A DNA stretch of 35,838 nucleotides from Bacteroidia bacterium (GTDB lineage: Bacteria; Bacteroidota; Bacteroidia; UKL13-3): the NCBI GenBank assembly GCA_018058135.1, contig JAGPCK010000006.1, forward strand, positions 1 to 35,838, in the 5' to 3' direction. Shown in pieces: positions 10,258 to 35,838 of this stretch (its first letter is position 1; the number at the start of each line of letters is the position of its first letter). The position numbers and the translations under genes are program-made. The notes beneath the pieces were generated by a model. The model made no database searches and was not told the origin of the DNA. It worked only from the letters and a program-made list of their open reading frames with translations.

Positions 10258-11547
10258 ATGCTAACAGAAAAAGTAAAACAGGATTTTCAGCAATATATAC
10301 TGCAGGCAGAAAAAGAAAATGCATTAACGCAGATAAGGGAACATGCGTTTGCCGAGTTTGAGAAGCTGGGATTTCCAACCATAAAACAAGAAGAGTGGAA
10401 ATACACCAATCTGAAACCCGTTACTGAAAAAGAGTTTCAGTCAACCTGTGAAATCAATTCACACATTAAAGAATTGGTGAAACAATCCATATTCGCGCAG
10501 CTTAAGGCCAACTTACTTGTTTTTGTAAACGGCACTTTTGTGAGTGAGCTTTCCTGCATTTTGGAAACCGATAGTGCCGTGGTTATCGGCAGTTTGGCTA
10601 CAGAGCGTAAAAATCACGAAGCTGTTTTTACCCGTCATTTCGGGAAATATGCTAAGGTGGAAGGAGAAGCAATGAACGCCCTCAACACTGCTTTATTGAG
10701 TGATGGTGCATTTGTACACGTTGCTGCAGGTAAAACTGTGCAGTTTCCTATTGTTATTTACAATCTGGTTGATGGTTCAGATATGAACGTTTTGAATCAG
10801 CCACGTAACCTGATAGTGTTGGAAAAAAGTGCTTCAGCCACCGTTGTTGAAGCCTATTTCGCCACGGGAAAAAATGCTTCTTTTACTAACGTGGTAACAG
10901 AAGTGTATGCAGATGAAAATGCACACTTGGAGCAATACAAAATTCAACAACAGGAGGGGGAGTGTTACCAGAATAATTTCACTCAGGTGTTTCAGGAGAG
11001 TAATACCAACATCAACCACGTTACCCTTACACTTGACGGCACATTTGTTCGCAACAACCTGCATTTTTACATGAATGGTAAAAACTGCAACAGTTTGCTT
11101 TACGGTTTGTATGTAACTGGTGCTAAAAACTTTGTAGATAACCATACTCGCGTTGATCACGCCCAGCCCAACGGTTTCAGTGATGAGAAATATAAAGGTA
11201 TTCTGAAAGATCAGTCAACGGCAGTATTTAACGGCAAAATTGTGGTGCATTTAGATGCACAAAAGACTAATGCATATCAACGCAATCAGAACATTTTATT
11301 AAGTGATGAGGCCACAGTAAACACCAAACCTCAATTGGAAATTTTTGCCGATGACGTAAAATGCACGCACGGTGCCACCATCGGACAATTAGATGAAGAA
11401 CCAATGTTCTACTTGCGTAGCAGAGGTATTCCGGAAAGTGAAGCACGTAAAATGTTACTGAATGCATTTGCTGATGACATTGCTGAGAAGATAAAAATAC
11501 CTGAACTGGTAGCATTACTGGAAGAGCAAATAGATAAAAAACTGTAG
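10258..11547 (+). CDS. sufD: Fe-S cluster assembly protein SufD
   Basis: 429 aa. Paralogue of SufB that completes the SufBC2D complex and is linked to iron acquisition. Recognisable motifs: the N-terminal EEWKYTNLKP (residues ~43-52), ALLSDGAFVHVAAG in the beta-helix core, DNHTRVDHAQPNG, and the C-terminal CTHGATIGQLDEEPMFYLRSRGI with its conserved Cys-Thr-His-Gly. The SufB-type QCDS motif is absent, as expected for SufD. Starts 3 bp after sufC. Confidence 0.97.
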   Translation: MLTEKVKQDFQQYILQAEKENALTQIREHAFAEFEKLGFPTIKQEEWKYTNLKPVTEKEFQSTCEINSHIKELVKQSIFAQLKANLLVFVNGTFVSELSCILETDSAVVIGSLATERKNHEAVFTRHFGKYAKVEGEAMNALNTALLSDGAFVHVAAGKTVQFPIVIYNLVDGSDMNVLNQPRNLIVLEKSASATVVEAYFATGKNASFTNVVTEVYADENAHLEQYKIQQQEGECYQNNFTQVFQESNTNINHVTLTLDGTFVRNNLHFYMNGKNCNSLLYGLYVTGAKNFVDNHTRVDHAQPNGFSDEKYKGILKDQSTAVFNGKIVVHLDAQKTNAYQRNQNILLSDEATVNTKPQLEIFADDVKCTHGATIGQLDEEPMFYLRSRGIPESEARKMLLNAFADDIAEKIKIPELVALLEEQIDKKL

Positions 11548-11574
11548 TCAGAGAAAATGTAATCTGTGTAAACG

Positions 11575-12807
11575 GTGGCAAAATTAGACTTAGAGTCAAT
11601 CAGAAATCAGTTTCCTGTTCTTCATCAGGAAGTCAATGGTAAGCCATTGATTTACTTTGACAATGCAGCCACTACACAAAAACCTAAACGAGTTATTGAT
11701 GCTTTGGTAAAATACTATGAGCACGATAATGCCAATATTCACCGCGCAGCCCACACTTTGGCCTCACGCTCTACAGAATATTTTGAAAAAACGAGGCAGA
11801 CAGTTCAGCAATTTATAAATGCCCGTGAAGCCGAAGAGTGCATATTCACCAAAGGAGTTACAGAAAGTATCAACTTAGTAGCTCAAACCTGGGGACGAAA
11901 ATTTCTGAAAGCGGGTGATGAGATTATCATCACTACCATGGAGCACCATAGCAATATAGTTCCCTGGCAAATGATTTGTGAAGAGACAGGCTCAGTTCTT
12001 AAGGTAATTCCTATCAATGACGCAGGTGAACTTGTGATGCCGGAGTACGACAAACTTTTGTCGAACCGCACAAAAATGGTTGCCTGTGTTTGGGTGAGTA
12101 ACGCTTTGGGTACGGTTAATCCTGTAAAAGAAATTATAACCAAAGCGCATGCTGTTGGAGCTAAGGTGCTGTTGGACGGAGCACAAGCCTGCTCACATCT
12201 GGATGTTGATGTACAAGATTTAGATTGTGATTTTCTGGCAGTTTCTTCACACAAACTTTATGGACCTACGGGCGTTGGAGTATTATATGGTAAACGGGAA
12301 ATTCTGGAGTCTATGCCACCTTATCAGGGGGGAGGGGAAATGATAAAGGAAGTAACCTTTGCCAAAACTACGTACAATGAAATACCCTATAAATTTGAAG
12401 CAGGTACACCTAATATTGCAGATGTAATTGCCTTTCAGTATGCACTTGAATTTGTTCAGGAAATAGGAAAGCCAAGTATCGCATCACATGAAAATGAGTT
12501 GCTCAAACACTTTACTGAAGGAGTGAATTCTATCAATCAATCAGCTCATTCACCAATTAACTTAATTGGTACAGCGCAGCAGAAAGTCTCAGTTCAGTCC
12601 TTTACTTTCAATACGTTACATCATTTTGATGCAGGCATGATGCTCGATGCAAAAGGCATTGCTGTGCGTACCGGCCATCATTGCACTCAACCTTTAATGC
12701 ACCGATTCGGGTTGGAAGGAACAGTGAGAGCATCCTTTGCCGTATACAATACAAGGAATGAAATTGACGTGTTGTTAGATGCATTGGAACGACTAAATAA
12801 GTTATAG
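11575..12807 (+). CDS. sufS: Cysteine desulfurase SufS
   Basis: 410 aa PLP enzyme, group II (SufS/CsdA) desulfurase that removes sulfur from L-cysteine for cluster assembly. Schiff-base lysine Lys227 in SSHKLYGPTG, PLP-stacking His124 in MEHHSN, Asp201 in LLDGAQ, and the persulfide cysteine Cys370 in RTGHHCTQP, with the short active-site loop typical of SufS rather than IscS. The start is a GTG at 11575; the nearest upstream in-region ATG runs straight into a stop. Twenty-seven bp after sufD. It should hand sulfur to SufE encoded next. Confidence 0.97.
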   Translation: MAKLDLESIRNQFPVLHQEVNGKPLIYFDNAATTQKPKRVIDALVKYYEHDNANIHRAAHTLASRSTEYFEKTRQTVQQFINAREAEECIFTKGVTESINLVAQTWGRKFLKAGDEIIITTMEHHSNIVPWQMICEETGSVLKVIPINDAGELVMPEYDKLLSNRTKMVACVWVSNALGTVNPVKEIITKAHAVGAKVLLDGAQACSHLDVDVQDLDCDFLAVSSHKLYGPTGVGVLYGKREILESMPPYQGGGEMIKEVTFAKTTYNEIPYKFEAGTPNIADVIAFQYALEFVQEIGKPSIASHENELLKHFTEGVNSINQSAHSPINLIGTAQQKVSVQSFTFNTLHHFDAGMMLDAKGIAVRTGHHCTQPLMHRFGLEGTVRASFAVYNTRNEIDVLLDALERLNKL

Positions 12808-12824
12808 GCATAATCAGATTAAAA

Positions 12825-13259
12825 GTGGCGAATACAACCGATATACAAAACGAAATTATTGACAACTTTTCTCTGTTTGACGGAGATATGGAAAGTACGC
12901 TGTTTTATCTGATGGATTTAGGTAAAAAATTACCCGCTATGCCACAGGAGCATAAAACGGAAGATTACATCATCAAAGGTTGCCAGAGTAAGGTTTGGGT
13001 GTATCCTACATTTGTAAATGGAAAAATACTTTTTGAGGCAGACAGTAATACTGAAATAACCAAAGGATTGGTATACCTTTTATGGAGTATTTGGAATAAC
13101 CGCACACCTGAGGAAATATTAAGCGCTGAGCTATTTTTCATAAACAAAATAGGAATGAGCAACATGATAGGTTCCCAACGCAGCAACGGCTTTGCCAATA
13201 TGATTAAACAAATGAAGATGTATGCTTTGGCTTATAGTGGTGCACCTGAGCAAAATTAA
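12825..13259 (+). CDS. sufE: Sulfur acceptor SufE
   Basis: 144 aa, normal SufE length. Accepts persulfide sulfur from SufS and transfers it to SufB. The receiving cysteine is Cys53 in IIKGCQSKVWV, the family signature; LPAMPQEHKTEDYI precedes it. The start is a GTG at 12825, 17 bp after the sufS stop, and no in-frame ATG occurs before the conserved core. Like sufS it uses a non-ATG start, so the sulfur-donor pair may be translated at a lower rate than the scaffold genes (inference). Confidence 0.96.
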   Translation: MANTTDIQNEIIDNFSLFDGDMESTLFYLMDLGKKLPAMPQEHKTEDYIIKGCQSKVWVYPTFVNGKILFEADSNTEITKGLVYLLWSIWNNRTPEEILSAELFFINKIGMSNMIGSQRSNGFANMIKQMKMYALAYSGAPEQN

Positions 13260-13269
13260 TTGAACAACT

Positions 13270-13620
13270 ATGACAGAACACAATACTGAAAATACACACA
13301 AGCCAAGCAGAACTTTTGCTGATGTACAAAATGAAGCTATAGAGGTTATTCAAACCGTTTTTGACCCTGAAATTCCGGTTAACATATACGAATTGGGACT
13401 TATATATGAAGTAAAAGTTTCCAATGATTTAGACATTGAGGTGATTATGTCACTTACCTCTCCGTTTTGTCCGGCTGCTCAAAGTATGCCGGCAGAAATA
13501 AAAGAAAAGCTCGAAAAAATTGAAGGAGTGAGGGGGGTAGAGGTAAATGTGGTGTTTGAACCGCCATGGACACAAGACATGATGAGCGAAGCGGCCAAGC
13601 TTCAGCTTGGGTTCATGTAA
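13270..13620 (+). CDS. sufT: SufT-like DUF59/MIP18 Fe-S assembly factor
   Basis: 116 aa, a stand-alone MIP18 (DUF59) domain. Motifs: DPEIPVNIYELGLIYEV (residues 32-48), the conserved cysteine Cys67 in SLTSPFCPAA, and the C-terminal VNVVFEPPWTQDMMSE. Proteins of this family at the end of suf operons assist maturation of Fe-S proteins, probably at the carrier or transfer stage; the exact step is not settled. Ten bp after sufE and the last gene of the operon. A short dyad CCAAGC-TTCA-GCTTGG at 13595-13610 overlaps its end and may act as a weak terminator before the TTTTT at 13621. Confidence 0.9.
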   Translation: MTEHNTENTHKPSRTFADVQNEAIEVIQTVFDPEIPVNIYELGLIYEVKVSNDLDIEVIMSLTSPFCPAAQSMPAEIKEKLEKIEGVRGVEVNVVFEPPWTQDMMSEAAKLQLGFM

Positions 13621-13661
13621 TTTTTGATTCAGGTATTTTAATCCATTTGATTTTCATTATA

Positions 13662-13678
13662 TTGCATTCGCAATGCAA
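13662..13678. other. Perfect 7-bp dyad upstream of the type B cargo gene
   Basis: TTGCATT-cgc-AATGCAA in the 104-bp gap between sufT and the next gene. No T-tract follows on the plus strand, so an operator or a leader hairpin is as likely as a terminator. No convincing -7 box was found in this gap. Confidence 0.3.
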
Positions 13679-13724
13679 CATATTGGCATGTTAAAGTGTC
13701 AATAGGTACATAAACCCGATTAGA

Positions 13725-16700
13725 ATGAGAATACAAGCCTGCGGCCGAATTATTTTATCACTGCTTTTAATATGCTTTTTGCCAACTATTTCTTTGGCAA
13801 AACACTTGGTTGGCGGCAGCATGGAGTATACTTACATTGGTCAGTTTAATGGATTACAGCGGTACAATATCAAATTAACACTTTACAGAGATTGTCAGAT
13901 AACCCCATCTAATCCAAATCCAACACCTTTTGATCCTGATATCACTATAGGTATTTTTAATGCTAATGCTACACGAACATTACAAACGTCATTAAACATT
14001 CTAAAAGGTACTGAGGTTGCAGTAAATCCCCCAACTGGTGGAAGTAATTGTTCTTTTTTACCTAATGTATGTTTAAGGGAGGCTGTTTATCAAAAGAATG
14101 TTGATTTACCCTCAAGCACGGTGGGTTACCATTTGGTATGGCTGCGTTGTTGCAGAACTGACATCATTACCAATCTAAATCAGAATGCAGGACAAGGGTA
14201 TTATGCATTCATACCCCCTACAGCAAATAATAACAGTTCTCCCTACTTTGTTGGGGTGCCGGCACCTTTTATCTGCGCCAATGATTTAGCTCAGGTTATC
14301 AATACAGCCACCGACCCCAACGGTGATAGTTTAGCCTACTCTTTGGTTCATCCATTTGCCGGGGGAACAGCTGCTCAACCTACACCTTATGACCCCAACC
14401 CGCCTTCAACATTGTCGTTACCTTTGCCTTTGGTAACATACACAACGGGTTTCAATACTAATCAACCATTTGGAGCCGGAGGTACTGCTACAGTTAATAC
14501 GGCATCTGGTTTATGTGATTTTAAAGCGCTTAATGCAGGAGCATATGCCGTTGCAGTTGAAGTGAGAGAATATAGAAATGGTGTGTTTTTGGGTTCAGTT
14601 CGAAGAGACGTATTGTTAATGGTATTAAATTGCCCGCCTAACCCACCTGCCAACTTAGCTGCAACCGGTGGAAGTGGAAATACATCGCCTACAATTATAG
14701 CGGGAGAAACCACCTGTTTTCCTATAAAATTTGTTGATTCGCAAGACAGCATCTACATCACCAGCTTCGGAGATATTCTGGATGGTACAGGCGGTTATAC
14801 AGGTACTTTAGCCACTTTACCTGATGTTGTTGATAGTGGTGAAGCTACCGCCACATTTTGTTGGACACCTAATTGTAATGCAGTAAGAACCGCTCCCTAT
14901 ATTTTTAGTGTACAAGCCAGAGACAATGGTTGTCCGCCTAAAATAACTACTATTAATTATTCCATTAAGGTTGATCCGTTTAGAGGAGTAAACACCATTG
15001 TGGGAGATACTTTTATATGCACACCGTTTAATGGAAAAACATATGCTGTTTCCGGAAGGGCGGGTTCAACGTATACATGGGCTGTAAACGGAGGTTCGTT
15101 AATTTCAGGGCAGGGGACATCGAGTGTGGTAGTTAATTGGCCCAATACAACAGGTACAGGTAGTATTACTGTAGTAGAAACTAATTCTAAAGGCTGTGTG
15201 GGAATAAATAATACCCGAACAGTGATTATGCAATCAAAGCCATTGAGTAACGCCATAACCGGTGACGGCATTCCTTGTGAAGGTGATAAATCAGTAACCT
15301 ATACTGTTAATAATAACTCAGGGAATACCTACATCTGGGGAGCCACAGGAGGCACAATTGTAAGCGGAGGAACATCCAATCAGGTAACAATCAACTGGGG
15401 CAGCTCAGGTTCAGGTTATATTTGGGTACGTGAATATACATCAGGTGGCTGTCCTGGTGATTCCAATACACTAAGCGTAACTGTACGCCCTAAACCTATT
15501 ATGGATGCAGGTCCTGATAAAAGTATTTGTGATCCCGGAGCTCCGGTTCAGCTTAATGCATCAGGTGCACAGATTTTCCAGTGGAACAGCAGCCCTACTT
15601 TATCCAACACGTCAATCAATAATCCTATTGCTACACCAACTGTAACTACAGATTATGTTGTTTCAGGGAAATTTACTGCAACAGGATGCATAGGTTATGA
15701 TACAGTCAGAGTTAACGTTTACAGCCGTCCTGTCCCTATAAATATTTCAGGTGACATACAACCCTGTGAATTCACATTAAATGTGGGTTACAGCGTTTCT
15801 CCAAAATCAGGTTCCACATATAGTTGGTTGGTAAATGGCGGAAACATTATCGGGGGCTCAACAGGAAGCAGCATTTTTGTGAATTGGGGTGGAAAGGGTA
15901 GCGGCAAAGTGATGGTAATTGAAACCAATCAAAACAACTGTACAGGTGACACCATGTTCCTACCTATTAACATCAGAGAAATACCGGTAATTGATGCAGG
16001 AATTGACTCATTAATTTGTGAAGGTGAAACTGTTCAACTAAATGCTACAGGGGCCAATCTTTTTGTGTGGACTCCTAATTCATCTTTAAGTAGTACATCT
16101 ATTCCTAATCCGATTGCCAATCCGGTAAACACAACAAAATATTTTGTTAAAGGTTATTTGGTTGCGGGTGGTTGTGAGGCAAACGACTCGCTGCTCATTA
16201 CGGTTTTAAACAAACCTGTTCTTAATATTGGCGTTGGAGATACTGTGTGCAGGGGTACAACAGTTGAATTAAAAGTACTGGTAGGAACTGATTTCAAATG
16301 GAACACAGGAGCTACTTCGCAAAGTATTTTTGTAACTCCCAATACTACATCAGCCTATTGGGTATTGGTACAGAATCAGAAATGTATTTTCGATACACTT
16401 AAAGCTTTTGTGGTGGTTAATCCTACGCCTGTTGTTGTAGTAACACCAAGTGCTACCAGCGGAATGGAACCTTTGAAAGTTGATTTTGCCAACTTTACTA
16501 CTGATGCGGATACTTACGACTGGCGCATGGGAGATGGTGTTGGCCGGTTCTCTTCCGTTAATGTCTCCTACCTGTATGAAATACCTGGTAAGTACACCAT
16601 GCGCATGTATGCCAGTAACGTTTACGGCTGTAAAGACAGTGTTTTCATTGATATTGATGTGCAGGAAATGCAATACTTTATCTTAATCCCGAATGTAATA

Positions 16701-16943
16701 ACACCTGACGGAGATGCTTTAAATGACATTTTCGAAATTACCTATTCCGGATATCTGGATGTGAAAGGAATGGTGATTAACCGTTGGGGCCAAACTGTTT
16801 ACGAATGGGGTAACGACAAATGGTGGAATGGCCGCATCAATGGCAATGAGCCGGCTGACGGACAGTATTTTTATATTATTGAATGTAAAGGGCTGCGTGG
16901 CAGAGTAGATACTTACAAAGGCCCGTTAACAGTAATTCGCTAA
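13725..16943 (+). CDS. Multi-domain T9SS cargo, type B sorting domain
   Basis: 1072 aa. Signal peptide 1-26 ending SLA before KHLVGGSMEY. The N-terminal ~400 residues form a cysteine-containing region (MEYTYIGQFNGLQRYNIKLTLYRDC...) that I recognise as common at the start of large Bacteroidota surface proteins but cannot assign a function. After that come PKD-like/Ig-like modules with repeated cores: STYTWAVNGG, NTYIWGATGG and STYSWLVNGG. Between and after them are two 'DAG.D..IC' modules ending in PTVTTDYVVSG and PVNTTKYFVKG. A final PKD domain (YDWRMGDGVG) is followed by the type B sorting domain (PNVITPDGDALNDIF, VINRWGQTVYEW, final LTVIR). Predicted surface adhesin or filament protein. No PorP/SprF gene is adjacent, unlike the cargo at the start of the window. 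Confidence 0.9.
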   Translation: MRIQACGRIILSLLLICFLPTISLAKHLVGGSMEYTYIGQFNGLQRYNIKLTLYRDCQITPSNPNPTPFDPDITIGIFNANATRTLQTSLNILKGTEVAVNPPTGGSNCSFLPNVCLREAVYQKNVDLPSSTVGYHLVWLRCCRTDIITNLNQNAGQGYYAFIPPTANNNSSPYFVGVPAPFICANDLAQVINTATDPNGDSLAYSLVHPFAGGTAAQPTPYDPNPPSTLSLPLPLVTYTTGFNTNQPFGAGGTATVNTASGLCDFKALNAGAYAVAVEVREYRNGVFLGSVRRDVLLMVLNCPPNPPANLAATGGSGNTSPTIIAGETTCFPIKFVDSQDSIYITSFGDILDGTGGYTGTLATLPDVVDSGEATATFCWTPNCNAVRTAPYIFSVQARDNGCPPKITTINYSIKVDPFRGVNTIVGDTFICTPFNGKTYAVSGRAGSTYTWAVNGGSLISGQGTSSVVVNWPNTTGTGSITVVETNSKGCVGINNTRTVIMQSKPLSNAITGDGIPCEGDKSVTYTVNNNSGNTYIWGATGGTIVSGGTSNQVTINWGSSGSGYIWVREYTSGGCPGDSNTLSVTVRPKPIMDAGPDKSICDPGAPVQLNASGAQIFQWNSSPTLSNTSINNPIATPTVTTDYVVSGKFTATGCIGYDTVRVNVYSRPVPINISGDIQPCEFTLNVGYSVSPKSGSTYSWLVNGGNIIGGSTGSSIFVNWGGKGSGKVMVIETNQNNCTGDTMFLPINIREIPVIDAGIDSLICEGETVQLNATGANLFVWTPNSSLSSTSIPNPIANPVNTTKYFVKGYLVAGGCEANDSLLITVLNKPVLNIGVGDTVCRGTTVELKVLVGTDFKWNTGATSQSIFVTPNTTSAYWVLVQNQKCIFDTLKAFVVVNPTPVVVVTPSATSGMEPLKVDFANFTTDADTYDWRMGDGVGRFSSVNVSYLYEIPGKYTMRMYASNVYGCKDSVFIDIDVQEMQYFILIPNVITPDGDALNDIFEITYSGYLDVKGMVINRWGQTVYEWGNDKWWNGRINGNEPADGQYFYIIECKGLRGRVDTYKGPLTVIR

Positions 16944-16947
16944 ACCT

Positions 16948-16978
16948 TTTGGTTAGCATTCAGCTTTTCCTATTTTTG
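16948..16978 (+). promoter_or_regulatory. Consensus promoter of efp
   Basis: TTTG (16948-16951), exactly 19 nt, TATTTTTG (16971-16978): a perfect match to the Bacteroidota housekeeping promoter, beginning 5 nt after the previous stop codon. The efp ATG is 19 nt downstream of the -7 box. Confidence 0.88.
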
Positions 16979-16997
16979 CTGCTCAAATTAGAAACTT

Positions 16998-17558
16998 ATG
17001 GCCAGTACATCAGATTTATCAAACGGAGCATTTATCAAACATAACGGAGAGTTGTGTCAGGTGTTGGAGTATATTCACCGTACCCCCGGAAACCTTCGTG
17101 CATTTTACCAGGTGAAATTAAGAAACGTAAAGACGGGTAAGCAAATGGAACACCGCTATCGCGCTGGTGAAGGCATTGAATTTGTTCGTGTGGAGTTTAA
17201 AGAAATGCAGTACCTGTACAAAGATGGCTCAAGTTTGGTGATGATGGATCCTGAAACATTTGATCAGGTGTATGTGGATGAAATCCTGTTGGGAGATGCA
17301 GCTGGTTTTATGAAAGAAGAAATGATGGTTAAAATTGCCTTTGAAGGCGACACCCCCATATCTGCTGAGCCACAAACATTCGTTGTAATGGAGATTACTT
17401 ATACTGAACCTGGTGTAAAAGGTGACACAGCTACTAATACACTAAAGCCGGCTACTATTGAAACAGGAGCACAAATAATGGTTCCTTTGTTTGTGAATGT
17501 AGGTGAAAAAGTGAAAATTGATACGCGTACTCGTGAGTACGTGGAGCGGGTAAAATAA
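16998..17558 (+). CDS. efp: Translation elongation factor P
   Basis: 186 aa, standard three-domain EF-P length. EF-P enters ribosomes stalled at consecutive prolines and promotes peptide bond formation. The KOW-like N-terminal domain has the tip loop HRTPGNLRAFYQVKLRN (27-43). The tip residue, normally a modified Lys or Arg, is Asn32 here. C-terminal signature: TNTLKPATIETGAQIMVPLFVNVGEKVKIDTRT. The gene has its own strong promoter and a strong terminator, consistent with a highly expressed single gene. No EpmA, EarP or YmfI-type modification gene is nearby. Identity is certain; the Asn tip implies no lysine- or arginine-type modification. Confidence 0.97.
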   Translation: MASTSDLSNGAFIKHNGELCQVLEYIHRTPGNLRAFYQVKLRNVKTGKQMEHRYRAGEGIEFVRVEFKEMQYLYKDGSSLVMMDPETFDQVYVDEILLGDAAGFMKEEMMVKIAFEGDTPISAEPQTFVVMEITYTEPGVKGDTATNTLKPATIETGAQIMVPLFVNVGEKVKIDTRTREYVERVK

Positions 17559-18018: not shown

Positions 18019-19644
18019 TTATTCTTTAATCAACTTACTGCGCTGAATCAGTTCACCTTTAGCGTTCGTAAGGGTAATGAAATAGATTCCGGCTGGCTGG
18101 TTCGTAAGGTTTATGCTGTTGGTGTTTTGTGCTTCTATCACCAACTTACCTGTTATATCCATGATGCTGATGTTGCAATTGTCGGACAGGGTAATATGAC
18201 TACGGGTAGGGTTGGGGTAAAAACTCACAGCCTTAGCAGTTGCACTTTCTTTTATTCCTACAGATACAGGATTGGCTTCTTTAAATAAACTATCAATTTC
18301 CAGTGTACTCAATGCTCTACTATAAATCCGAATATCATCCAAATCACCTTTATAGTAGTAATCTGTTCCCAACACGTTGGTAAAACCTGCAACTAAATTA
18401 GCTCCGGTAATGTTGAAATCTCCGGTGGTAAAAGAGGTGCTGCTGCTACCCACGAATTGACCGTCAATAAACAGAGAGGTGGAACCACTGAAAGTACTAA
18501 CAACTGTAACATTATGCCATAAAGCATCCATCGTATTTCCTGAAAACACTCTTACAGGACCTCCAACACCACCGGGTGATGGTTTGTAAAAGAATCCTAA
18601 CGTATTATCTGCGGTACCAAATTGCCCTACGTTGATGCAATATTGATCAAAGGAAGGACTGTCTTTGCGTTTATTTAGTAGGGGGGCAAATTGAGTGGTA
18701 TTAAACTTAGCCCAGACTGAGATAGTAAAATTATTGTTTCCCATACGGAAAGCAGGAGCATCTCCAAAATCTATTTTGTCATTGATGCCATCGAATGCGT
18801 ATGCTTTATTTGTGTTTCCAAACCGGTCTGTGGTAAGTGATGCACCAGTTACTGTTCCATTATTGCTGCCTATTTCATCGTTGGCGTTACCAGCATTAAA
18901 GGAGTATTTGGCAACAAGTCCTGAATTCAAATCTACAACTGGGTTGGGCTCATTAAATAAACTAATAACCTCCGTTTCATTTAAAACCCTGTTGTATACC
19001 TTAATGTCGTCAACAGAGCCATTCAAATTTCCCGGGTACGTGTTGTTACCAGATTGTCCGATATAAATTGAATCACTGGTGTAGTTGAGTGCAAAACCTT
19101 TGTAAATACTCCATTCTTTTTGTCCCCCTATGTACATTCTCATGGAGTCGTGGTCAATCGCTATAACATAATGTTGCCAGCCTGTAGGTGCTGCATTGGC
19201 TGAAAATCCTAAAGTGCTTTCTGTGGGACCATTTTGACTTACACTAAGGTATTTACTATTGGAGGTGTATACACTTAAACACAAAGTAGCGAAATATGCA
19301 TTGGTTGTGCTGTTAACAATGGAATAAATGTAATTGGTACCAACATTAGAAACGCAAAAGCTGTCAACTTTGACCCAAAGGGAAACAGTCATGTTAGCTG
19401 ATTTTAATACTGCAGCATTGGGTAAGGTAATGTTATCACCATTGATAAAATTGTAGGCCTTGTTGGCATTTCCGAATCTATCGGTAGTTAAATTAGCCCC
19501 GTTTACAGTACCGTGATTTGTTCCTACTTCATCATTGGCATTTCCGCTGTTGAATGAATATTTGGCAACAAGTCCGTTGGTTACCTGTCCATGTGCAATT
19601 CCTGTTATTAACACGGTTATTGCAATAAGTAATGTTTTTTTCAT
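18019..19644 (-). CDS. Double-LamG surface protein, T9SS type A
   Basis: 541 aa from the ATG at 19644, which gives a signal peptide MKKTLLIAITVLITGIAHGQ. The frame extends upstream to an ATG at 19680, but the -7 promoter box (19669-19676) lies inside that stretch, so the inner ATG is preferred. Two laminin-G-like jelly-roll domains (about residues 25-238 and 243-458) start almost identically: GLVAKYSFNSGNANDE and GLVAKYSFNAGNANDE, then TTDRFGN. Each ends with a GSVDDIKVYNRVL or GDLDDIRIYSRAL strand. The C-terminus (from ~475) is a type A T9SS sorting domain (SFYPNPTRSHITLS ... GIYFITLTNAKGELIQRSKLIKE). LamG domains usually bind glycans or proteins; the ligand is unknown. Single-gene unit with its own promoter and terminator. 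Confidence 0.9.
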   Translation of the reverse strand: MKKTLLIAITVLITGIAHGQVTNGLVAKYSFNSGNANDEVGTNHGTVNGANLTTDRFGNANKAYNFINGDNITLPNAAVLKSANMTVSLWVKVDSFCVSNVGTNYIYSIVNSTTNAYFATLCLSVYTSNSKYLSVSQNGPTESTLGFSANAAPTGWQHYVIAIDHDSMRMYIGGQKEWSIYKGFALNYTSDSIYIGQSGNNTYPGNLNGSVDDIKVYNRVLNETEVISLFNEPNPVVDLNSGLVAKYSFNAGNANDEIGSNNGTVTGASLTTDRFGNTNKAYAFDGINDKIDFGDAPAFRMGNNNFTISVWAKFNTTQFAPLLNKRKDSPSFDQYCINVGQFGTADNTLGFFYKPSPGGVGGPVRVFSGNTMDALWHNVTVVSTFSGSTSLFIDGQFVGSSSTSFTTGDFNITGANLVAGFTNVLGTDYYYKGDLDDIRIYSRALSTLEIDSLFKEANPVSVGIKESATAKAVSFYPNPTRSHITLSDNCNISIMDITGKLVIEAQNTNSINLTNQPAGIYFITLTNAKGELIQRSKLIKE

Positions 19645-32619: not shown

Positions 32620-32704
32620 ATCGATGACGCAAGGTAGGAATTTTACCTTTTGTAATCCTTAAAAAATGCGGTGATTCACCATCAGAATAATTAGATTAAA
32701 CATC

Positions 32705-32744
32705 CATTTTTTTGCTTTACTTTGAATAACCAAAACCACTGTTC
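32705..32744 (+). repeat. 40-bp upstream leader repeat, copy 1 (before lipoprotein A1)
   Basis: Forty bases directly before the ATG of A1, identical to those before B1 (33333-33372) and B3 (35079-35118). It contains TTTACTTTGAAT, close to a TAnnTTTG -7 box, so it may carry a promoter for each ATG-starting gene. Confidence 0.8.
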
Positions 32745-33320
32745 ATGAAAAACAGATTTGCACTTGTATTGATAATGGCCGCTTTTAGCAGCTTGAGCAT
32801 TCAATGCAAAGAAGATGAAAAAGGCCCCGTACTTGCTGAAGAACTAGCCAAGCTACCCAAAGCCACAACAGAAGGTTATGAGACATTTGGTTGCTTGCTT
32901 AACGGTTGGGCATGGCCGGGTGGAAGAAAAATATATGACTATACCCTACATATTGCCTACTATAATTATAATGGTGGAAAGCGCTTTAATGTAATGTGTT
33001 ATACACAGGAAGTAAGTGGTATTATCCCACCCCCTACAAAAGACATCGTAAACATTGTTACCGATGACATTATAACCGGACCGGGGGAGTATATTATTTC
33101 ACTCGAAGATATTAACACTGATTTTGTAGCAATAAAGTACAAAGAAATAAGATATAATTCAGGTTTTCTAGCAAGTTTTGGCCAAAAATTACACTTAAAT
33201 ATAACCCGTTTAGATAGCATCAATAGGATAATATCGGGCAATTTTAGAATATCACTTTTGGATTATACCGGCACAAAAGCCATGCACTTGGAATATGGCC
33301 GTTTTGATAGTTATTATTAA
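32745..33320 (+). CDS. Array lipoprotein A1 (type A)
   Basis: 191 aa, not recognised as a named family with certainty. Signal peptide with N-type leader (MKNRF...), ending SSLSIQ before Cys21. The cysteine is followed by KEDEK, which fits the acidic Bacteroidota signal for surface export of lipoproteins; the -1 Gln is unusual for a lipobox. The mature part opens with a short spacer, then FGCLLNGWAWPGG, a Cys-x-x-Asn-Gly-x-x-Trp motif shared by all array members and by various Bacteroidota lipoproteins of unknown function. About 100 residues of beta-rich sequence follow, with TGPGEYIISL, ending LEYGRFDSYY. Type A mature sequence, nearly identical to A2 except for a short loop near residues 87-97. 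Confidence 0.85.
   Translation: MKNRFALVLIMAAFSSLSIQCKEDEKGPVLAEELAKLPKATTEGYETFGCLLNGWAWPGGRKIYDYTLHIAYYNYNGGKRFNVMCYTQEVSGIIPPPTKDIVNIVTDDIITGPGEYIISLEDINTDFVAIKYKEIRYNSGFLASFGQKLHLNITRLDSINRIISGNFRISLLDYTGTKAMHLEYGRFDSYY
32781..32822 (+). repeat. 42-nt anchor block, copy 1 (A1)
   Basis: Encodes the end of the signal peptide and CKEDEK (AFSSLSIQCKEDEK). The same 42 nt recur at 33409-33450 and 33971-34012, and at 35155-35196; copies at 34533-34574 and 35723-35764 each differ by one base. This is the most conserved segment of the array and the border between leader and body modules. Confidence 0.9.
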
Positions 33321-33332
33321 GTGTTCAACATT

Positions 33333-33372
33333 CATTTTTTTGCTTTACTTTGAATAACCAAAACCACTGTTC
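33333..33372 (+). repeat. 40-bp upstream leader repeat, copy 2 (before B1)
   Basis: Identical to the 40 bases before A1, here filling most of the 52-bp gap between A1 and B1. Confidence 0.85.
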
Positions 33373-33921
33373 ATGAAAAACAGATTTGTACTTTTATTGA
33401 TAATGGCCGCTTTTAGCAGCTTGAGCATTCAATGCAAAGAAGATGAAAAAGTTCTCCCACAGCCGCAGGCAACCTTGCCCGCCATAACCAGTGATGGGTA
33501 CAACACTTTTGGTTGCAAACTCAATGGCACGGTATGGCCCACTTTACCTGAAAAGGAGTATGAAGAGTTTTGGATGGACTACTGGGATGGCCAATGGGCT
33601 CTTCACTTGTATATTGATTATAACGATTTAGATGGTACTCCAGATGCTGTTATGACTCTTGCTACCAACGACATTCATGATACCGGGTATTATATAATAC
33701 CTTTCGATAACTTTAATTATAATCATTTTGCATTTGCTAATAATAGAGTTGGTTTTTATTCCTATGACAAAATTAACCGAAGCGATTCAGCGTATCTTCA
33801 CATTTTGAGATTCGATACACAAAAAAGAATTATAGCGGGTACATTTAAGTTCTCTCTTTTTAATAAACAGGGAACCCAGCGTTTACATGTAACCGATGGT
33901 CGTTTCGATTGGCACTATTAA
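33373..33921 (+). CDS. Array lipoprotein B1 (type B)
   Basis: 182 aa. N-type leader (MKNRFVLLL...) and the same CKEDEK boundary as A1. The body is type B: VLPQPQATLPAITSDGYNTFGCKLNGTVWPTLPEKEYE, then FWMDYWDG, a beta-rich middle and the ending RLHVTDGRFDWHY. Shares the FGC-x-LNG-xx-W motif and the general layout with type A (both end in 'GRFD.-Y'), so A and B are ancient paralogues, whereas the B copies are very close to each other. Function unknown. Confidence 0.85.
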   Translation: MKNRFVLLLIMAAFSSLSIQCKEDEKVLPQPQATLPAITSDGYNTFGCKLNGTVWPTLPEKEYEEFWMDYWDGQWALHLYIDYNDLDGTPDAVMTLATNDIHDTGYYIIPFDNFNYNHFAFANNRVGFYSYDKINRSDSAYLHILRFDTQKRIIAGTFKFSLFNKQGTQRLHVTDGRFDWHY

Positions 33922-33934
33922 AAGTTTGAAAATT

Positions 33935-34483
33935 GTGAAAACCAACTACGTTATACTACTTCTTTTTGTTGCTTTTAGCAGCTTGAGCATTCAATGCAAA
34001 GAAGATGAAAAAGTTCTCCCACAGCCGCAGGCAACCTTGCCCGCCATAACCAGTGATGGGTACAACACTTTTGGTTGCAAACTCAATGGCACGGTATGGC
34101 CCACTTTACCTGAAAAGGAGTATGAGATTTTTTGGATGGACTACTGGGATGGAATTTGGGCAATAAATTTCCATATTGATTATAACGATTTAGATGGAGT
34201 TACCGATGCTACCATGACTTTAAAAACCAACGACATTCATGATACGGGGTATTATATAATACCATTCGATAACTTTAATTATAATCATTTTTCATTTTCT
34301 AATAATAGACTTGGGTTTTATTCCTATGACAAAATTAACCGAAGCGATTCAGCCTATCTTCACATTTTGAGGTTCGATACACAAAAAAGAATTATTGCCG
34401 GCACGTTTAAGTTCTCTCTTTTTAATAAACAGGGTACGCAGCGTTTACATGTAACCGATGGTCGTTTTGACTGGCACTATTAA
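33935..34483 (+). CDS. Array lipoprotein B2 (type B, mosaic)
   Basis: 182 aa from a GTG at 33935, 13 bp after the B1 stop; this gives a T-type leader (MKTNYVILLLFVAFSSLSIQ-C). An ATG 13 codons upstream, inside the B1 coding end, would give an unlikely N-terminus. The body is type B. The middle segment (EIFWMDYWDGIWAINFHIDY ... MTLKTNDIHDTG) is like B3, whereas from about residue 115 on (FDNFNYNHF ... GFYSYDKINRSDSAY) it is like B1. The switch in similarity falls around 34200-34260, which looks like a gene-conversion or crossover point. Confidence 0.82.
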   Translation: MKTNYVILLLFVAFSSLSIQCKEDEKVLPQPQATLPAITSDGYNTFGCKLNGTVWPTLPEKEYEIFWMDYWDGIWAINFHIDYNDLDGVTDATMTLKTNDIHDTGYYIIPFDNFNYNHFSFSNNRLGFYSYDKINRSDSAYLHILRFDTQKRIIAGTFKFSLFNKQGTQRLHVTDGRFDWHY

Positions 34484-34496
34484 AAGTTTGAAAATT

Positions 34497-35066
34497 GTGA
34501 AAACCAACTACCTTATATTACTTCTTTTTGTCGCTTTTAGCAGCTTGAACATTCAATGCAAAGAAGATGAAAAAGGCCCCGTACTTGCTGAAGAACTGGC
34601 TAAACTACCCAAAGCAACATCAAACGGAAATGAAACATTTGGCTGCTTACTTAACGGATATGCATGGCCGGGTGGAAGAAAAATATATGACTATACCCTA
34701 CATATTGCCTACTATAATTACAATGGTGGAAAGCGCTTTAATGTAATGTGCTATACCTCCCATAGCGGCTCGTTCCCTATGAAAAAAGACATTGTAAATA
34801 TTGTTACCGATGACATTATAACCGGACCGGGGGAATATATTATTTCACTCGATGATAATAACACTGATTTTGTAGCAATAAAGTACAAAGAAATAAGATA
34901 TAATTCAGGTTTTCCAGCAAGTTTTGGCCAAAAATTACACTTAAATATAACCCGTTTAGATAGCATCAATAGGATAATATCGGGTAATTTTAGAATATCA
35001 CTTTTGGATTATACCGGCACAAAAGCCATGCACTTGGAATATGGCCGTTTTGATAGTTATTATTAA
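34497..35066 (+). CDS. Array lipoprotein A2 (type A)
   Basis: 189 aa from a GTG at 34497, 13 bp after the B2 stop, giving a T-type leader (MKTNYLILLLFVAFSSLNIQ-C). The body is type A and nearly identical to A1 from GPVLAEELAKLP to the end LEYGRFDSYY. The main difference is a short loop: A1 has TQEVSGIIPPPTKD where A2 has TSHSGSFPMKKD. Because the leader differs from A1's while the body is the same, leader and body have been recombined as separate pieces. Confidence 0.83.
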   Translation: MKTNYLILLLFVAFSSLNIQCKEDEKGPVLAEELAKLPKATSNGNETFGCLLNGYAWPGGRKIYDYTLHIAYYNYNGGKRFNVMCYTSHSGSFPMKKDIVNIVTDDIITGPGEYIISLDDNNTDFVAIKYKEIRYNSGFPASFGQKLHLNITRLDSINRIISGNFRISLLDYTGTKAMHLEYGRFDSYY

Positions 35067-35078
35067 GTGTTCAACATT

Positions 35079-35118
35079 CATTTTTTTGCTTTACTTTGAA
35101 TAACCAAAACCACTGTTC
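35079..35118 (+). repeat. 40-bp upstream leader repeat, copy 3 (before B3)
   Basis: Identical to the blocks before A1 and B1; lies in the 52-bp gap after A2, just as copy 2 lies after A1. Confidence 0.85.
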
Positions 35119-35673
35119 ATGAAAAACAGATTTGTACTTGTATTGATAATGGCCGCTTTTAGCAGCTTGAGCATTCAATGCAAAGAAGATGAAAAAGTTC
35201 TCCCACAGCCGCAGGCAACCTTGCCCGCCATAACCAGTGATGGGTACAACACATTTGGCTGCAAACTCAATGGGGTGGTATGGCCTACTTTGCCTGAAAA
35301 GGAGTATGAGATTTTTTGGATGGACTACTGGGATGGTATTTGGGCAATAAATTTTCATATTGATTATAACGATTTAGATGGAGTTACCGATGCTACCATG
35401 ACTTTAAAAACCAACGACATTCATGATACGGGGTATTATGTGATACCGTATGGAGATATTCAGTATGAACAATTTTCTATTTCCAACAACCGGCTTGATT
35501 TTTTCTCAGGCTCAAAAAAAAATCGTTATGGAAAAGACTCTGCTTATATCCATATTCTACGCTTCGATACTCAAAAAAGAATAATTGCGGGTACATTTAA
35601 GTTCTCTTTGTTAAACGATAGAGGCACCCAGCGTTTGCATGTAACCGATGGTCGTTTCGATTGGCACTATTAA
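35119..35673 (+). CDS. Array lipoprotein B3 (type B)
   Basis: 184 aa, N-type leader (MKNRFVLVL...), CKEDEK boundary, type B body. The first half matches B2 (EIFWMDYWDGIWAINFHIDYNDLDGVTDATMTLKTNDIH). The segment after HDTGYY is its own (VIPYGDIQYEQFSISNNRLDFFSGSKKNRYGKDSAY), and the end returns to the common RLHVTDGRFDWHY. Function unknown. Confidence 0.85.
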   Translation: MKNRFVLVLIMAAFSSLSIQCKEDEKVLPQPQATLPAITSDGYNTFGCKLNGVVWPTLPEKEYEIFWMDYWDGIWAINFHIDYNDLDGVTDATMTLKTNDIHDTGYYVIPYGDIQYEQFSISNNRLDFFSGSKKNRYGKDSAYIHILRFDTQKRIIAGTFKFSLLNDRGTQRLHVTDGRFDWHY

Positions 35674-35686
35674 AACTTTGAATATT

Positions 35687-35838
35687 GTGAAAACTAACCA
35701 CCATATATTACTTCTTTTTGCCGCTTTTAGCAGCTTGAGCACTCAATGCAAAGAAGATGAAAAAGTTCTCCCACAGCCGCAGGCTTCCCTGCCCGCCATA
35801 ACGAGTGATGGTTACAACACTTTTGGCTGCAAACTCAA
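35687..35838 (+). CDS. Array lipoprotein B4 (type B, cut by window end)
   Basis: Partial. GTG at 35687, 13 bp after the B3 stop, followed by a T-type leader (MKTNHHILLLFAAFSSLSTQ-C), KEDEKVLPQPQASLPAITSDGYNTFGCKLN, where the window ends. The frame is intact for all 50 visible codons. It shows that the array continues beyond the window and repeats the A-B-B order with the same leader pattern. Confidence 0.8.
   Translation, partial: MKTNHHILLLFAAFSSLSTQCKEDEKVLPQPQASLPAITSDGYNTFGCKL

Follow-up and report, generated by a model that had tools for sequence, protein, structure and literature searches.

Cassette exchange among paralogous lipoprotein genes of a Bacteroidia array, and their putative role in immunity to a secreted lipase-like protein

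The lipoprotein gene B2 (33935-34483) of the Bacteroidia contig JAGPCK010000006.1 is a mosaic of segments that match different members of its own tandem array, and recombination between the paralogues of this array is nearly certain, as supported by the runs of diagnostic sites, by the conflicting trees of its blocks and by the simulation of a single duplication tree. Paralogue recombination of such a kind is already known. The whole account that we propose, and towards which we lean slightly, is that these genes code for exported lipoproteins that swap two variable cassettes, V1 and V2, and that may confer immunity to the lipase-like head of a large protein, C0, encoded next to other members of the family. 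The window is the whole stretch of 35,838 nt that was analysed; positions are those of the window unless a contig is named, and all features described in it lie on the forward strand.

The order of the array, read across a scaffold gap of 100 N, is A1 B1 B2 A2 B3 B4 B5 B6 A3, the order past the gap being less certain. The first copy, the A-type gene A1 (32745-33320), is followed by a spacer, S1 (33321-33372), which probably holds a promoter and 5' leader; it lies within a family of 128-nt repeats found at 32696-32823, 33324-33451 and 35070-35197. The B-type gene B1 (33373-33921) is 94% identical to B2 in the V2 block and 78% in the V1 block. Only the 13-nt spacer S2 (33922-33934) separates the two genes, which may form one transcription unit; B2 starts with GTG 13 nt past the stop of B1, and an in-frame ATG is found at 33896. 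Spacers of equal length come after B2 (34484-34496) and after B3 (35674-35686). Between these copies lie the A-type gene A2 (34497-35066), which matches A1 at 96-100% (60-column windows) in its rear cassette and 3' end, a second S1 spacer of the 128-nt repeat family (35067-35118) and the B-type gene B3 (35119-35673), with V2 and 3' blocks identical to those of B5. B4 is cut by the gap: its 5' part occupies 35687-35838, and its remainder, then B5, B6 and A3, are found beyond the window at 35939-38211 of the scaffold, C76. A1, B1, B2, A2 and B3 were each read from an open reading frame.

Longer promoter-like spacers precede A1, B1 and B3 (32696-32744, 33321-33372 and 35067-35118) and 13-nt spacers precede B2, A2 and B4, so that the array resembles a set of separate transcription units with an A-type gene last in each. 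An exact repeat of 456 nt (35383-35838 = 36758-37213) contains the 3' part of B3 (or B5) with the start of B4 (or B6), its unit spanning two adjacent genes.

Along B2, relatedness changes from segment to segment. The leader (33935-33970) holds 18 sites private to B2 with respect to B1 and B3; among the copies other than B4, A2 is the closest here (93.3% over 60 nt). The following block, C1 (33971-34125), has 0/155 differences to B1 and 7/155 to B3; it forms an exact 155-nt repeat with B1 (33409-33563 = 33971-34125) that ends at the first junction. Cassette V1 (34126-34246) is B3-like, with 2/121 differences to B3 and 29/121 to B1. The switch point falls in a conserved joint, J (34247-34255), since there is no site diagnostic of B1 or B3 between 34246 and 34256. 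Cassette V2 (34256-34373) is B1-like, and over 34247-34373 B2 differs from B1 at 7 of 127 positions and from B3 at 49. In the last block, C2 (34374-34480), the differences over 107 positions are 4 to B6, 6 to B4, 8 to B1 and 19 to B3. The preliminary description had reported B2 following B3 over 34117-34250, then following B1 where B3 differs, as a mosaic of two halves; the coordinates were right and the mosaic holds, with at least five segments in place of the two halves.

A codon alignment of B1, B2 and B3 gave 95 ungapped two-way sites at which B2 equals exactly one of the other two copies. These are B1-type at 7/7 positions up to 34125, B3-type at 27/27 positions in 34126-34246, and B1-type again at 57/61 thereafter. 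They fall into 11 runs; 20,000 permutations gave 42.8 runs on average and never fewer than 23. The longest stretch with B2 equal to B3 covers 25 of the 164 polymorphic sites and was equalled in 0/50,000 permutations; the longest stretch with B1 equal to B2, of 27 sites, was equalled in 42/50,000. A phylogeny of the two blocks had been named beforehand as the check by which the mosaic could fall, and the trees conflict: over the seven B-type copies, the V1-block data reject the V2-block tree with an AU value of 2e-6, and the reverse comparison gives 6e-10. B2 is not the sole recombinant in the array, as B1 to B6 with a further copy on contig C67 show V1 and V2 types in six combinations (our own grouping), and with so many combinations the donor and the recipient copy are not fixable.

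Discordant copies occur elsewhere in the family as well. In the source genome (G000; 127 contigs, 84% complete), 21 matches to B2 were found, and 20 copies were aligned, B4 lacking its first bases. Of the resulting 190 pairs, a single one, B3/B5, reaches 88% identity in V1 as well as in V2; a further 11 are discordant (at least 88% in one cassette, at most 72% in the other). The A-type copies are the clearest case. A2 and A3 differ from each other in V1 and in V2; on contig C91, A7 combines the V1 of A2 (98%) with the V2 of A3 (98%), and its neighbour A6 combines the V1 of A3 (99%) with the V2 of A2 (97%), unlike A types being 49-53% identical in V1 and 65-68% in V2. A1 has the V2 of A2 and shares its V1 for most of the length, not all. 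Over eight A-type copies the V1 and V2 trees reject each other (AU 9e-6 and 4e-73). The copies on C91 are reciprocal to the combinations of A2 and A3, which argues for ectopic exchange reaching beyond the tandem; of the gene conversion or unequal crossing over suggested at first, recombination between paralogues therefore stands, and unequal crossing over within the tandem alone does not.

A similar pattern was seen in another genome of the genus, G002, where a boundary-free scan returned a three-contig mosaic: a single copy matches a copy on another contig along 208 nt at 97.6% identity, and a copy on yet another along 342 nt at 98.0%; with the strict cut-off, 43 extracted copies of this genome gave 1 discordant and 3 concordant pairs. 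In the further genome of the genus, G001, lipoprotein copies lie less than 1 kb from the first base of contigs C1, C4, C7, C22, C61 and C74, suggesting that arrays probably break this MAG and that copy number is likely underestimated. Two other sources of variation were considered and rejected, a diversity-generating retroelement (0 RVT_1 matches in the source MAG, at 84% completeness) and switching by inversion (inverted repeats are absent from the array stretch).

The product of B2 belongs over its full length to NCBIfam NF052634, the Riean_0653 family (122.1 bits, and 97.2 for A1, with a cut-off of 57). Its match to Pfam PF19765 (DUF6252) reaches 25.1 bits, under the gathering score of 27.2, and DUF6252 is matched at E 0.001 or better by 27 of 40 aligned proteins; neither entry gives a function for its family. 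The N-terminus is signal peptide-like and ends in ...IQC-KEDEK, which we take to be a lipobox, its cysteine and the residues C-K-E-D-E-K being encoded at 33995-34012. This motif is similar to the Bacteroidetes lipoprotein export signal (LES), for which the part of PMC5080379 drawn on here gives, in C. canimorsus, K-(D/E)2 or Q-A-(D/E)2 as the minimum and C-X-K-(D/E)2 as the optimum; in B2 (C-K-E-D-E) the K stands at +2, not at +3, a spacing that the same source describes as less efficient for export in that organism.

The structural model of B2 (mean pLDDT 83.8) is beta past the signal helix except for one short turn. Foldseek returned no match to it at E 0.001 or better, and the three top entries of a VIA alignment were all LpqH (best Z 8.8, 104 residues aligned, rmsd 2.9; next 5.9), a middling similarity that says nothing on function. 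Six weak matches by sequence in the PDB (E 0.025-0.79), to Sal-like zinc-finger proteins and one microtubule protein, were taken as chance, and PADLOC gave no match for two lipoproteins and two C0 proteins.

What points to a function is the neighbourhood of the relatives of B2. We scanned 25 loci of G000, G001 and G002, and the largest cluster of non-lipoprotein ORFs was c0 (21 ORFs, 12 of full length), present at 14 of the 25 loci. Starts of c0 were searched with two 250-residue queries and every candidate was scored, the adjacency counts resting on these queries. A query with residues 1-250 of one C0 protein found 32 pieces in the three genomes, 29 of them with a 5' end. A lipoprotein gene of the same strand precedes 27 of these 29 at a distance of 21-119 nt (match coordinates); the two exceptions, on contigs C83 and C56 of G001, end 149 and 85 nt short of a contig end. 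Thus all 27 testable c0 starts in the genus follow a co-directional lipoprotein gene, and judged by this spacing the two genes are probably co-transcribed. Adjacency to a co-directional secreted-enzyme gene, as looked for in effector-immunity pairs, was found at all of these starts and not at the window array, where tblastn with 12 C0 proteins gave a best E of 0.069 over the array stretch. Over the whole window, among the matches listed, the best (E 0.001, 18028-18252) was rejected as a c0 remnant, being the C-terminal end of another ORF.

Of these 29 starts, 14 lie in open frames longer than 1300 aa and the others are remnants or run off a contig; small start pieces are found between lipoprotein genes on contig C30 of G001 and on C18, C26, C37 and C81 of G002. 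On C26 of G002 (10806-17146), a c0 start stands behind each of three lipoprotein genes in a row; the last belongs to a complete c0 gene and the other two are short remnants, which would be the picture left by duplication of lipoprotein-c0 units with subsequent loss of the enzyme. Lipoprotein genes outnumber c0 genes by 22 matches to 3 in G000 and by 51 to 14 in G002. In a wider set of 50 loci, 44 lie outside the SSF48 genome; in 13 of these 44 a c0-like ORF follows downstream at 400 nt or less, in 17 one occurs somewhere in the stretch, and the stretches of the other 27, many from Hymenobacter and some cut by contig ends, hold none. Outside the genus, the lipoprotein-c0 order was found again in G023 and G013, and the c0 homologue of G027 is not preceded by a lipoprotein gene. 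In the same-family genomes G006, G007 and G018 the c0 homologues are preceded by other, unrelated lipoprotein-like ORFs, some with a start of the 'GKVID..TKQPL' type, and could be alternative partners.

C0 itself is predicted to be a large T9SS-secreted protein with an alpha/beta-hydrolase head of lipase or esterase type. A Por_Secre_tail (T9SS sorting) domain exceeds the cut-off in 7/7 proteins, PGAP1 is matched in 6/7 (one over the cut-off), one DUF676 match is over the cut-off, and the motif G-x-S-x-G-G is invariant in 14/14 rows. By its sequence C0 has the marks of a T9SS cargo, namely a sorting domain at its C-terminus and the secretion system itself in the same genome, SprA being present in G000 (SprA_N match, 4.9e-169). 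In the model of the head (mean pLDDT 65.8), all 50 Foldseek matches listed are alpha/beta-hydrolases (best E 7.8e-7), with a query TM of 0.14-0.19, one domain being matched, and the best VIA alignment has Z 11.7 over 200 residues with an rmsd of 4.2.

The three full-length C0 genes of G000 (L125, L126 and L127) are mosaic as well, with swapped heads and shared tails. Between the hydrolase motif and the middle, 7/8 windows of the proteins of contigs C91 and C4 show 80-95% identity; their tails show 27-58%, apart from the last window (80%). For the proteins of C91 and C67, identity is 23-60% over the head and 76-97% over the tail. In G000 the type of the lipoprotein (A, A and B for C91, C4 and C67) tracks the head and not the tail, for which linkage alone could suffice. 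Over 11 pairs, lipoprotein distances correlate with those of C0 windows by up to 0.70. Over eight loci the correlation with C0 is 0.82 for the proximal lipoprotein and 0.72 for the next one, so that specific pairing is not supported.

We propose that the lipoprotein, in the envelope of the producer, would bind and neutralise the lipase head of C0, in the manner of TilA against TslA. The genes of the family share a plan (conserved 5' block, variable V1, short conserved joint, variable V2, conserved 3' block), and homologous recombination via the conserved blocks, within the array and between loci, swaps V1 and V2, which would create new specificities; extra copies with no partner, such as those of the window array, would guard against the C0 variants of competitors. 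For the immunity function itself, suggested by analogy, we see about an even chance. Points against it are the c0 homologue of G027, the 27 of 44 loci and the window array that are without c0, the +2 position of K in the LES-like motif, with its poorer export spacing in C. canimorsus (PMC5080379), the mean pLDDT of the C0 head model (65.8) and the nearly equal correlation of the next lipoprotein with C0.

The lipoprotein might equally be an anchor or a chaperone, and it may more generally help C0, acting as its dedicated chaperone or co-lipase or anchoring it at the surface, a possibility that we consider unlikely. The close same-strand linkage upstream of c0 suits such a helper as well as it suits an immunity protein. 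However, the excess of lipoprotein genes over c0 genes, an array in the window without any c0 and the c0 remnants lying beside open lipoprotein genes all suit immunity better, and a helper would have no clear need of combinatorial cassettes.

Comparably unlikely is that the lipoproteins are surface antigens or receptors (for phage, predator or ligand) diversified by recombination, the lipase-like gene being merely linked cargo. Variable cassettes within a conserved frame, the LES-like motif and a predicted fold that best matches the LpqH lipoprotein would all be in line with this, but it leaves the position of all 27 testable c0 starts behind a lipoprotein gene unexplained. Moreover, neither a reverse transcriptase nor, in the array stretch, an inverted repeat was found, and silent cassettes are lacking, 21 matches in the genome having no internal stop (B4 is split by the gap).

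The mosaic could also have been produced by short-read metagenome assembly or by mixed strains, and this deserved attention as the array holds exact repeats of at least 127 nt, among them the B1=B2 repeat that ends at the first junction of B2, and the source is an incomplete MAG in many contigs. The window ends at an assembly break inside a repeat, the sequences on either side of the gap (C76:35839-35938) sharing exactly 127 nt, as expected for contig ends of a k=127 de Bruijn graph. However, none of the array's exact repeats that reach 127 nt spans the V1/V2 junction of B2, and the 127-mer across this second junction holds 17 B3-type and 21 B1-type sites; a join made there by the assembler is therefore unlikely. 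The 127-mer across the first junction is also rich in sites of both parents (7+13), B2 carries private sites, and copies of other contigs and of a second MAG show the pattern too, so that we regard an artefact as very improbable. Finally, a single duplication tree without recombination, shaped by region-specific rates or selection, is practically excluded, since simulations of 15 copies gave on average 0.03 discordant pairs (maximum 1) with region-scaled branch lengths and, even with branch lengths left free per region, 7.1 (maximum 10), the observed 11 being attained in 0/200 simulations under either scheme, and since the reciprocal V1/V2 combinations of A2, A3, A6 and A7 and the AU tests of both A-type and B-type blocks also reject it.

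Returning to immunity, the broader reading would be that Bacteroidota use a T9SS lipase against other bacteria or for kin discrimination, protecting themselves by the lipoprotein encoded just upstream, and that in some lineages orphan arrays act as a combinatorial immunity library shuffling two cassettes between loci; this we put forward tentatively, with slightly less than even confidence. If true, the adjacency of head and immunity gene means that a single crossover in the shared tail would carry both together. An uncharacterised lipoprotein family would gain a testable function and a partner, and type IX secretion would be a candidate pathway by which lipase effectors pass between bacteria. 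The reciprocal A-type recombinants are natural chimeras for asking which cassette determines specificity. A search of the open-access literature found no paper on the pair of T9SS lipase-like protein and Riean_0653 lipoprotein or on such a combinatorial array.

Two known systems come close to this arrangement, that is, a lipoprotein gene with an enzyme that has an N-terminal catalytic head, an excess of lipoprotein genes, decayed enzyme copies, an orphan array and recombination at conserved blocks. In TslA/TilA, a T7SS phospholipase is encoded with a lipoprotein of the DUF576 (Lpl/Csa) family (PMC10730906). In the part of that source used here, TslA, like C0 as predicted, is a lipase with an N-terminal catalytic domain and a C-terminal secretion signal, and, as at c0, its gene is accompanied by that of a lipoprotein belonging to a multi-gene family. 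The two differ in that C0 would use type IX secretion, has in our reading of its sequence a beta-helix-like tail and is paired with Riean_0653 lipoproteins; B2 and A1 were compared through scans against Pfam and NCBIfam, which listed no DUF576/TilA family. The esaG genes of S. aureus and tipC of streptococci form T7SS immunity gene arrays (PMC9484751), and the esaG arrays, as far as the consulted part of this source describes them, are like the window array strings of non-identical tandem paralogues, with conserved blocks, one of them across the gene end and spacer, and with variable regions that yield conflicting trees. Protein, phylum and secretion system differ from those of esaG, the family described here also exchanges between contigs, and its immunity role is drawn by analogy. 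It is for this resemblance to TslA/TilA and EsaD/esaG that the window array is proposed as an orphan array of immunity lipoproteins. The recombination logic of T7SS immunity arrays, with conserved joints, swappable segments and exchange between loci, is seen here outside the Bacillota.
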